This document shows positions 2,325-8,375 of a DNA stretch of 64,000 nt, one piece after another. Positions within the stretch are counted from its first letter, which is position 1. The number at the start of each line of letters is the position of its first letter. Under the pieces are notes generated by a model. It saw only the letters and a program-made list of their open reading frames with translations, was not told the origin of the DNA and ran no database searches. Both the position numbers and the translations under genes were made by a program. This DNA comes from Lentisphaerae bacterium GWF2_49_21 (GTDB taxonomy: Bacteria; Verrucomicrobiota; Lentisphaeria; Victivallales; GWF2-50-93): positions 1 to 64,000 of the forward strand of contig MHBH01000070.1 of assembly GCA_001804805.1 (NCBI GenBank), in the 5' to 3' direction.

Positions 2325-3380
2325 TTAGAAAATCTTTATCGCCTTTGCCATCCCCATCTCAAGGAAGGGCTCCTTCGCATATAAAGAACCGCAACAGGCT
2401 TCAGCCGCAGCCTTGCAGCCGCCTTGACACTCCCTTTCCATTTTGCACCCGCTGCAGAATGCTGGACGTGCAGACATGAAATCCGCTAGTTTTTGCGACT
2501 TGAGAATTTTCTTCAGCGGTTCATTAAGAATATTCCCAAGGATTGTAGGCGTATGGTTGCACGGACGGACATTCCCAACTGGATCAAGCGTGTAATATGC
2601 CCGATCCGTTCCGGCAGCACAAAATCCAAAGCCGACATGCGGATAAGCCTTGATATCAATCAGGCACGGTTGAATTGCAATTGATGCACCTACGCCGATC
2701 CTATATTTCAAAGAGTATTTCTCAGCTATTGCAAGCCCGTCCTTGATGTCCTCGACGGATGGCATCAGCTCTTCCGGATGAGCATGGCATTCCCCGCCGG
2801 CATTGTAGCGGTTGTAAAGGAAGCTCCGCGCCCCGAGGGCAATCCCGAGTTCAAGAACTTCCTTCCAATGCCTGATATTCAAAGACGTCCCCACAAAGAC
2901 AAATGCGACTTCGCCTCCATGATAACGGATATCGGCAGCGGCCCGGGTAACCTTGTCGAAACATTCAAAACCTCCAGCCATCTTGTCATGGATATTCCTG
3001 TCTGCAGAATTGAGCGGAAGCTCAAACAAGGATATTCCTGCTTCAATCAGCGACTGGATCCTGTCCTCTGGCAGCAGCGTCCCGTTCGTTATAAGGTTTA
3101 CACTTCTGCATTTCGATCTCACCGTGGATACCAGTTCCTCAAGGTCGTCCCGCATCAGCGGTTCGCCTCCGGTGAATGTGAAATTACGGCATCCGCTTTC
3201 CCGGATGGATTTCAGAATCAGTTTTTTAGCCGCCTGCGTACTCAGTTCCTTCTCCGGATATCCGACATCATCCTTCCAGGCATTATAGCAATGCAGGCAT
3301 TTGAGATTGCATCTCGGAGTCACCTCATATAGAATTGAATTATACGAGGTGATATTCAGGATTTTCCTGAGGAATTTCAT
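2325..3380 (-). CDS. Radical SAM/SPASM domain protein
   Basis: A 351-residue radical SAM enzyme. The [4Fe-4S] cluster that cleaves S-adenosylmethionine is bound by Cys24, Cys28 and Cys31 in TPRCNLKCLHCYN. FTGGEPLMR (glycine-rich SAM contact) follows. The C-terminal part is a SPASM-type domain with several cysteines: GFCAAGTDRAYYTLDPVGNVRPCNH, then CSGCKMERECQGGCKAAAEACC. SPASM enzymes commonly modify ribosomal peptides or proteins (PqqE, AlbA, anSME), so protein maturation is the likely role, with the exact chemistry unknown. The start codon overlaps the stop of the upstream lipoprotein gene by four bases (ATGA, 3377-3380), which indicates translational coupling and a functional pair. Confidence 0.88.
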   Translation of the reverse strand: MKFLRKILNITSYNSILYEVTPRCNLKCLHCYNAWKDDVGYPEKELSTQAAKKLILKSIRESGCRNFTFTGGEPLMRDDLEELVSTVRSKCRSVNLITNGTLLPEDRIQSLIEAGISLFELPLNSADRNIHDKMAGGFECFDKVTRAAADIRYHGGEVAFVFVGTSLNIRHWKEVLELGIALGARSFLYNRYNAGGECHAHPEELMPSVEDIKDGLAIAEKYSLKYRIGVGASIAIQPCLIDIKAYPHVGFGFCAAGTDRAYYTLDPVGNVRPCNHTPTILGNILNEPLKKILKSQKLADFMSARPAFCSGCKMERECQGGCKAAAEACCGSLYAKEPFLEMGMAKAIKIF

Positions 3381-4099
3381 TCTTTCTCGATCTCAACTAT
3401 GATTTGGGCAGCTGAAATGGCAGTGCCGCCAGGACTTACTGCGCTGTTCTTACACTTCTCCAGGAACTTCTTCTGCTCTTCAAAGCTTAAATCGGAAATC
3501 GCCTTGGCATCTGACAGGAATTGCAATTCTCTCGAGAGCGTTTCAGCGACCTTCTTCGCTGTTTCATCATCAATCGTACCCTTTTCCTTTGCTGCTCTGA
3601 GCAGTTCAATCTGCTTCAATGCTGTTTCATTCGATTCCTGCATGTTGAAACCAAGCACAGTTGGCTTATAGCAGGTTGGGACTTCTCCTTTGTTTCTGGT
3701 CATCATCTTGTGCTGGCTCAGTTCCGAATAAGCCAGAGTAAGCATTTTCGATACATTCTCGTCCATATTTTTATTCTTTACACATTCTTCCAACTTGTTT
3801 CTGAACTCCTCCCCTTTATCAGCATCGAGCACCTTCCAGGCAGCACTGATTGTATCAATTACCTTATATGTTTTCTGAGTCTTCTCGTCAACTTCTGTAT
3901 ATGCCGGCCGATAACATAATACTGGGCTTCTGCACCCAGTATTCATCAGCATTCCCGCAAAGAGCAGTACGGCCAGTATGAACCGGCGTTTCAATCCTGT
4001 CTTCATCCTCAGATCAGGCAGTTTGCGTTCCAACAACACCAGCCACACCGCATAAATGAATGCGGCTACAATAAGAATAGCAATACTAATCTTTGACAT
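3377..4099 (-). CDS. Membrane/lipoprotein partner of the radical SAM enzyme (unknown function)
   Basis: I choose ATG 4099 (240 residues) over the longer frame from 4171, because an AAAAAGGGGG ribosome site precedes it and the extension runs towards a dispersed repeat. Residues 4-22 form a first hydrophobic segment. A second one (about 41-53) ends in GMLMNTGC, which resembles a lipobox. Just after it comes LCYRP, and about 90 residues later TCYKP, so a Cys-Tyr-[Arg/Lys]-Pro motif occurs twice. The rest is charged and predicted helical. Families of putative lipoproteins paired with radical SAM/SPASM enzymes are known, and here the pair is coupled by an ATGA overlap, so this protein is a reasonable substrate candidate. 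That is inference. Confidence 0.65.
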   Translation of the reverse strand: MSKISIAILIVAAFIYAVWLVLLERKLPDLRMKTGLKRRFILAVLLFAGMLMNTGCRSPVLCYRPAYTEVDEKTQKTYKVIDTISAAWKVLDADKGEEFRNKLEECVKNKNMDENVSKMLTLAYSELSQHKMMTRNKGEVPTCYKPTVLGFNMQESNETALKQIELLRAAKEKGTIDDETAKKVAETLSRELQFLSDAKAISDLSFEEQKKFLEKCKNSAVSPGGTAISAAQIIVEIEKE

Positions 4100-4159
4100 G
4101 ATAAACCCCCTTTTTAATGAGGCAATTTCAAAATTGCCTCTATTGAGCTGATTGCTTTT

Positions 4160-4258
4160 GTTGGAGTACAAGCTTCAGCTTGCGTAACCTGTTGTCGAAG
4201 ATCCCGGCCCCAATGGGTGTCGGGAAATACTAAGACAAACTAAAGTTTGGACTCCAAC
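4160..4258. repeat. Inverted pair of GTTGGAGT-tagged hairpins (REPIN-like)
   Basis: Two units face each other. The left one is GTTGGAGT (4160-4167) followed by the hairpin CAAGCT/AGCTTG (4169-4182). The right one is the hairpin CAAACT/AGTTTG (4236-4249) followed by ACTCCAAC (4251-4258). The terminal tags are exact inverted repeats while the stems differ. A few tens of bases of unrelated sequence lie between them. The layout resembles REPINs, which are inverted REP doublets. Confidence 0.6.
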
Positions 4259-7247: not shown

Positions 7248-8375
7248 ATGAAAAAATTGAAAGTCCTGGTTGCAGTACTGCTGATAGGCGGAATATATCA
7301 CTCTGGCGTTTGCGGTGAAATCAAGGTCGGAATCAACCTTCCGCTGTCAGGCAATCTGACATCCTACGGCAAGGCGACTCTTGACGGAATGAAGCTCAAG
7401 GCTGATGAAATCAATGCAGCTGGCGGAATCAACGGGAACAAGCTTCTCCTTATCATCGAAGACAATAAAGGTGATCAGACCGAAACCAGGAACGCCTACA
7501 AGAAACTTGCCGGCAGTGACAAGGTCGTCGCCGTCCTCGGCCCTATCACCAGCACGAATGCGATCGCCGTCCGCAGGGATGCAGCTGAAATCAAAGTTCC
7601 CGTGATCTCTCCTACTGCGACAAATGATTCTGTGACTCCGAGAAATCCATACATGTTCAGGGCATGTTTCAATGATTCCTTCCAGGGTAAAATAGCCGCG
7701 AACTACGCATTCAATGAAAAAAAGTTCAAGACTGCGGCGGTGCTTGTCGACATGAACAGCGACTATTCAAAAGGCCTTTGCAAGAACTTCAAAATGGCAT
7801 TTGAAGCCGCCGGGGGCAAAATTGTGACCGAGGAAAATTACCAGCAGAAGGACACCGAATTCGGCGCACAGCTCAAGAAGATCAAAGGGAGCGCTGCCCA
7901 GACCTTGTTCGTCCCCGGATATCCTCCCGAACTGCCACTCATAATAAAGCAGGCGAAAGTGATCGGACTTGAATCCAAGCTATGCGGAGCGGACGGATGG
8001 GACCAGGAGTCGGTAATAAACGGATCAGGCCCCAATATCGAAGGATGCTTCATAGTCGGGGCGTTCTCCAGGGAAGACAAAAGGCCGGCCGTACAGAATT
8101 TCGTCTCTTCCTTTGAGAAGACCTACAAGGCCAAGCCCGGAACTTTTGAAGCACTTGGCTATGATACTGTTTCAATGTTCTGCGAAGCACTGAAGAAAGG
8201 GACTACCCCGGAAACCATCAAGGATGGTCTTCGTGGAATCAAGGATTTTGAAGCTGTAACAGGAAAGATTTCAGTGACCCCCGATGGCAATGTCGAAAAA
8301 AACGCCGTAATCCTGGAGATCGAAAAAGACGGCGACAAATACGTTGCAAAATACAAGGCGACCGTAAATCCATAA
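7248..8375 (+). CDS. livJ: Branched-chain amino acid ABC transporter, substrate-binding protein
   Basis: A 375-residue periplasmic binding protein of the Peripla_BP_6/LivJ family. A signal peptide covers about residues 1-23 (ending near GVCG), followed by EIKVGINLPLSG, the usual start of the mature domain. INAAGGINGNKLLLIIEDNKGD and VISPTATNDSVT are typical family blocks. GAGGTGG precedes ATG 7248. It is the first gene of a five-gene unit followed by two permeases and two ATPases, so it should deliver leucine, isoleucine, valine or a similar compound. Related systems also carry urea or amides, so the exact ligand is not proven. Confidence 0.92.
   Translation: MKKLKVLVAVLLIGGIYHSGVCGEIKVGINLPLSGNLTSYGKATLDGMKLKADEINAAGGINGNKLLLIIEDNKGDQTETRNAYKKLAGSDKVVAVLGPITSTNAIAVRRDAAEIKVPVISPTATNDSVTPRNPYMFRACFNDSFQGKIAANYAFNEKKFKTAAVLVDMNSDYSKGLCKNFKMAFEAAGGKIVTEENYQQKDTEFGAQLKKIKGSAAQTLFVPGYPPELPLIIKQAKVIGLESKLCGADGWDQESVINGSGPNIEGCFIVGAFSREDKRPAVQNFVSSFEKTYKAKPGTFEALGYDTVSMFCEALKKGTTPETIKDGLRGIKDFEAVTGKISVTPDGNVEKNAVILEIEKDGDKYVAKYKATVNP

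Follow-up and report, generated by a model that had tools for sequence, protein, structure and literature searches.

A window of 64,000 nucleotides from Lentisphaerae bacterium GWF2_49_21 (the whole stretch of contig MHBH01000070.1 analysed here) carries on its reverse strand a gene pair (Table 1) that probably encodes a two-part protein-maturation system. In this system, a stand-alone radical SAM/SPASM enzyme would modify the Cys-Tyr dipeptide of a CY-hairpin module in membrane-anchored proteins encoded upstream of the enzyme and sometimes elsewhere. The occurrence of the enzyme with CY-tagged membrane proteins points to a widespread and so far undescribed protein-modification system whose modified spot would be the tag itself. 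With somewhat less assurance, we also favour the broader view that the pair represents a new class of radical SAM maturation. One enzyme would then act on a portable Cys-Tyr/helical-hairpin module of many unrelated envelope proteins in Planctomycetota, Verrucomicrobiota/Lentisphaerae, Myxococcota and Armatimonadota and yield a new Cys-Tyr-derived group working outside the cytoplasm. A search of the open literature, with subscription papers mostly outside its reach and an earlier report therefore possible, returned no description of the pairing of this enzyme with CY-module proteins.

Table 1. Features of the enzyme and partner genes in the window.
Feature	Position	Strand	Details
Radical SAM/SPASM enzyme, 351 aa	2325..3380	-	ATG 3380, stop 2325; AF2 model pLDDT 89, pTM 0.89
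SPASM region (residues 254-329)	2394..2621	-	C254-x14-G-x4-C274 ... C309xxC312x5C318xxxC322, C329; PF13186 E 3e-7
Radical SAM core (residues 18-178)	2847..3329	-	CNLKCLHCYN cluster motif and GGEP; PF04055 E 5e-25
ATGA stop-start overlap, partner/enzyme	3377..3380	-	bases common to both genes
Partner protein, 240 aa, predicted substrate	3377..4099	-	ATG 4099, stop 3377
CY-hairpin module 2 (residues 141-195)	3515..3679	-	module profile match E 9.6e-20
Second Cys-Tyr motif, TCYKP	3662..3676	-	C143-P146 at 3673-3662
First Cys-Tyr motif, LCYRP, C62-P65 (CYRP)	3905..3916	-	in 6/7 aligned orthologues
Partner N-terminal membrane region	3938..4090	-	hydrophobic segment 4-22 (strong), LPDxR loop, weaker segment 38-54 before Cys56
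Ribosome-binding site AAAAAGGGGG	4106..4115	-	6 nt upstream of partner ATG 4099

The two genes share the ATGA overlap reported in the original prediction, which was made from the DNA letters of the window, and the N-terminus of the partner agrees with the conservation in its relatives, which begins at the Met of the same start codon. The pair is flanked in the window by genes for an MTTB-family methyltransferase and a family 5 solute-binding protein. These neighbours are not kept across the enzyme family; outside the window, the solute-binding gene was seen again only in L023 and L024, which are close relatives. Nor did we find a third conserved gene (exporter, protease or RRE) beside the pair across the loci of the family. 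Immediately upstream of the partner gene (window 4119-4140 and 4163-4255 region) are a perfect inverted repeat (GAGGCAATTTTGAAATTGCCTC) and a short palindromic element (GGAGTxCxxxCTTxAG) in two copies. These may be repetitive elements of the intergenic DNA.

By its sequence, the enzyme is a radical SAM/SPASM protein with the defining features of the group, and it falls in no known subfamily. It has the CX3CX2C (CNLKCLHC) and GGEP motifs of the radical SAM core as well as the CX9-15GX4C - CX2CX5CX3C - C pattern of SPASM proteins, and it scores above the cut-off of PF13186 and matches PF04055, all of which bears out the assignment originally made. An alignment of 26 family members, in which the window enzyme shares 41-81% identity with the rest, revealed invariant residues in the core (C24, C28, C31 and G71-P74) and in the SPASM region (C254, G269, C274, C309, C312, C318 and C322, with C329 present in most members). 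An extra cysteine upstream of the SPASM region (Cys239) is also invariant. The closest folds to the AlphaFold model of the enzyme (Foldseek) are SkfB, SuiB, anSME and PqqE, all of which modify peptides or proteins, and PqqE is the nearest solved structure by sequence (PDB 6c8v, E 7e-25). Searches of NCBIfam, Pfam and PADLOC identified a specific family for neither enzyme nor partner, and the enzyme was under every curated NCBIfam cut-off (the best match, PqqE TIGR02109, had 121 of 381 bits). Matches to viperin in PADLOC were rejected as hits to the generic radical SAM core. Pfam detected no RRE or PqqD-like domain in the enzyme, which starts about 15 residues ahead of the core.

PqqE, an enzyme of pyrroloquinoline quinone biosynthesis, resembles the window enzyme in being a stand-alone radical SAM/SPASM protein that acts on a ribosomal product. 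However, the window enzyme is 260 bits under the family cut-off, and its presumed substrates are proteins of 180-1088 aa, mostly membrane-anchored and bearing CY modules, whereas the substrate of PqqE is PqqA. No PqqA precursor or PqqD gene lies beside the enzyme genes at the loci, where CY-module proteins are the sole conserved neighbours. SuiB, SkfB and other SPASM peptide cyclases (RiPP maturases) are among the nearest folds (Foldseek E 1e-14 to 2e-15) and oxidise Cys or other side chains by two electrons, as proposed here. Yet they act on short peptides via an N-terminal RRE, unlike the window enzyme, which has no RRE and whose presumed substrates are large membrane proteins. Comparison with known radical SAM/lipoprotein pairs, as originally suggested, also places the enzyme outside existing families, with no NCBIfam cut-off neared. 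TIGR04133 (rSAM_w_lipo) and TIGR04134 describe radical SAM/SPASM genes that occur together with genes for putative lipoproteins, but the window enzyme reaches 77 bits against the TIGR04133 cut-off of 425 and the partner matches no NCBIfam lipoprotein model.

The partner protein contains the membrane segment and both of the motifs (LCYRP and TCYKP) first noticed in it. The second motif is the better conserved: C143 and Y144 are invariant in 7/7 partners of the window type, with variation in the adjacent Lys and Pro (K/E, P/M). The first copy has lost both Cys and Tyr in one orthologue (L015). Among 149 relatives, partner orthologues adjoining the enzyme gene are present in exactly the 4 genomes that bear the enzyme. 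The original label of lipoprotein holds for some members only. The weaker hydrophobic segment of the window partner terminates at MNTGC56, a sequence that fails the strict PROSITE lipobox rule (PS51257) with Asn at -3. The strict lipobox is found in two same-genus orthologues with TAGC, and more distant relatives whose partners are of this type (L025/L015, L026 and L027) lack it. As read from their sequences, the partners have in common a membrane anchor and the CY-hairpin module, not lipoprotein nature. The structure model of the partner has low confidence (pLDDT 68, pTM 0.58) and matched no fold in the PDB, so we left unused an apparent strand contact that it contains between the two CY motifs.

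The association of the enzyme with Cys-Tyr proteins extends well past the window. Scanning genomes with an alignment of closely related enzymes, we identified 28 loci in Lentisphaerae, Planctomycetota, Verrucomicrobiota, Myxococcota, Armatimonadota, Holophagaceae and others. At each locus, we applied a fixed, content-blind rule: of the same-strand ORFs with 100 aa or more that end no more than 420 bp upstream, the longest was taken. This gave 32 upstream ORFs once the window and later-found loci were counted in. CY was present in 29/32 of these ORFs, compared to a mean of 3.4 and a maximum of 10 in shuffled proteins (300 trials), and its enrichment ranked first among the 400 dipeptides. Loci discovered only after the motif had been stated had CY in 5/5 cases versus 0.5 expected. 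The same rule at loci of unrelated radical SAM genes, which served as controls not phylogeny-matched to the test loci, returned CY in 4/38 ORFs (Fisher p 4e-12). Viral contigs had distant radical SAM proteins only (up to 38% identity over the aligned stretch), which served as controls, and plasmids had no enzyme homologue at E 1e-30. The three exceptions are as follows: L043 has TCYMY within a shorter ORF, the partner of L029 is downstream of the enzyme, and L039 has TCYKT in a shifted frame. In L039 (1-600), a frameshift splits the partner gene and leaves TCYKTSSMP in the other frame; a sequencing error or decay could each account for it.

The element common to the partners is a module of about 55 residues composed of T-C-Y-[KDE]-[P/M/V], a short linker and a helical hairpin. 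In 69 sites (with Cys as position 0), Thr occupies position -1 in 59%, position +2 is mainly Lys, Asp, Glu or Arg, and position +3 is Met, Pro or Val. The hairpin begins 10-18 residues past the motif and has the form QxxLLxxL-x4-G-[KV]-[IVL]-x3-[TV]-x2-K; its likeness to the SHOCT domain, seen by eye, was unsupported by Pfam. Across 31 divergent modules, the only invariant columns are the Cys, the Tyr and one Leu, which agrees with the earlier expectation that the motif would be the most conserved part of the partner in homologous pairs. The motif first proposed, CY[RK]P, was right in its Cys-Tyr core but too narrow, the actual form being [T]-C-Y-[K/D/E/R]-[P/M/V]. A module located away from the enzyme gene in L144 (G358:C249, about 2928-3671 on the reverse strand) reads ECHQMAYLPP and lies in a row of similar genes. 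This C-H module may be a site in decay, or His may have replaced Tyr there as natural variation.

The proteins that carry the module fall into at least five groups with no detectable similarity between groups. They include the window type (10 loci), a planctomycete/myxobacterial type (8 loci), proteins with a T2SSG pseudopilin-like domain followed by a C-terminal membrane segment and the module (8 loci), the L089/L091-L093 type and HEAT-repeat proteins. The pseudopilin-like architecture is seen, for example, in L145 (G388:C8), L032, L038, L041, L042, L046 and L047, and prepilin-like genes adjoin the CY-module partner in L145. A planctomycete locus (L031, 4879-9832) has six consecutive genes with nine CY sites upstream of one enzyme gene. 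Such unrelated proteins, which share the motif and hairpin alone and are encoded several per locus and in some cases in trans, look like multiple substrates of one enzyme.

The partner could instead serve as a membrane anchor or electron donor, with CY as a binding site for a metal or for the enzyme. The real substrate would then be a small molecule, for instance a precursor of haem. The scores of the enzyme against the haem-pathway models NirJ2 and AhbD are close to its score against PqqE, and a fixed partner would likewise stay beside the enzyme. However, the haem-pathway scores are all hundreds of bits under the cut-off, and the partners are unrelated outside the module, number up to six genes per locus (L031) and in several genomes are encoded far from the enzyme. 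A set of unrelated, multiple and distant partners is more easily read as many substrates of a single enzyme than as one anchor, and a non-substrate role for the partners is, in our judgement, improbable.

Enzyme and module also occur together at the genome level. A module profile derived from CY-containing modules had matches in 4 of the 149 relatives, the same 4 that carry the enzyme. Among 236 Planctomycetota, 7 genomes matched the profile and 7/7 had an enzyme homologue, six at E 1e-110 and the seventh (G490) as a homologous reading frame at E 5e-84. One genome with the enzyme (G360) lacks a profile match, yet its partner has two CY motifs. Further modules lie far from the enzyme gene in eight enzyme-bearing genomes, seven with CY and one with CH. 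In the taxonomic family of the window, half of the sampled genomes have both enzyme and module and half have neither, a pattern drawn from close relatives that are non-independent. These results bear on the objection that the adjacency is a lineage-specific gene order devoid of a functional link and that CY is there by chance or for purely structural reasons. The rarity of the enzyme family and the origin of many loci in metagenome assemblies lend this objection some weight. Yet the pairing recurs with differing partner bodies in all of the lineages named for the scan, from Lentisphaerae to Holophagaceae, and the genome-level co-occurrence is complete in two samples. We give almost no credence to a chance association, which the pairing and co-occurrence tests contradict.

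The pairing, the motif conservation and the co-occurrence are what was observed, and the modification, its chemistry and the export of the module are inferred. The tight gene pair, which is the part of the scheme seen directly, would allow enzyme and substrate to be produced together. The enzyme would then recognise the module in the cytoplasm, with the hairpin after the motif probably serving for recognition in the manner of a follower peptide. Cys or Tyr would lose a hydrogen to a 5'-deoxyadenosyl radical, and the electrons would go to the SPASM clusters. SPASM enzymes typically catalyse two-electron oxidations; the simplest product is therefore a thioether or other cross-link, or another oxidised group, at Cys-Tyr, with a predicted mass change of about -2 Da per motif. 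As a strong hydrophobic segment lies ahead of the last CY in 26/29 partners, the module is likely exported following its modification in the cytoplasm. Insertion into or export across the membrane would place the motif just outside, beside the anchor, where the modified module may have a redox or protein-docking role in the envelope. Oxidation of Cys-Tyr by the enzyme in the cytoplasm, prior to export of the module, is the most likely of the readings considered. Counting against modification of Cys-Tyr are the C-H module in L144, the first motif copy in L015 and the absence of a recognisable RRE in the enzyme. Furthermore, because Cys comes immediately before Tyr, joining their side chains directly inside a single motif would close a small strained ring, and we know of no example of a cross-link between adjacent Cys and Tyr. 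CY could also be conserved for binding instead of modification.

Other chemistries at the same site are less well supported than oxidative modification of Cys-Tyr, as is the non-substrate role. The enzyme might, by an oxidation like that of anaerobic sulfatase-maturating enzymes (anSMEs), turn the Cys in the motif into a formylglycine-like aldehyde, with the Tyr and following residues acting as recognition determinants. anSME (PDB 4k37) is among the closest folds and, as a SPASM enzyme, alters a short Cys-containing linear motif in later-exported proteins; furthermore, Cys is the most strictly kept residue, and the lone Y-to-H module retains it. On the other hand, the enzymes are about 20% identical, the partners have CY[KDER][PMV] in place of the sulfatase motif ([CS]xPxR, or CxPxR in its Cys form) and none resembles a sulfatase. 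Sulfatase sites may have Ser, a variant not seen among the modules, and the near invariance of Tyr exceeds what recognition alone needs. Formylglycine formation is, in light of this evidence, unlikely. Splicing at the Cys-Tyr motif of the partner is less likely still. PlpX, the radical SAM enzyme of the PlpXY splicease, acts at the residue before a Tyr inside a larger protein (PMC10533398), as the window enzyme would. But PlpXY requires Tyr-Gly, and here the Tyr is followed by Lys, Asp, Glu, Arg, Met, Ala and others; Gly is not among the common post-Tyr residues of the 69 sites and is at none of the listed sites. PlpX also needs a second protein, PlpY, whereas the CY-module loci have no third conserved gene. 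We regard splicing as very unlikely and retain oxidative modification of Cys-Tyr as the preferred reading.

Most known radical SAM peptide maturases act on small, dedicated peptides from which natural products are made. The present system appears to target a transferable tag in large membrane proteins, found in several copies and also in trans, which would be nearer to a cellular protein-modification pathway than to natural-product maturation. If the modification is real, it would bring a new residue chemistry at Cys-Tyr, a lead to what unannotated envelope proteins of at least five families do, and a genetically encodable tag. The motif is short, exact and amenable to mass spectrometry.

We also identified a more distantly related radical SAM gene (158 bits) in L100 (G368:C12:184500-196500) that is flanked by four paralogous Cys-Tyr proteins (at 2665-3483, 3490-4035, 7677-8375 and from 9815). 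Their motifs (CYDMAGPP, CYEVASND, CYKPAMPP and CYAPMPMH) are followed by CPxC/CxxC pairs in an architecture that differs from the CY-hairpin. This locus hints at a second Cys-Tyr system and at a targeting of Cys-Tyr that is wider than the family of the window enzyme.
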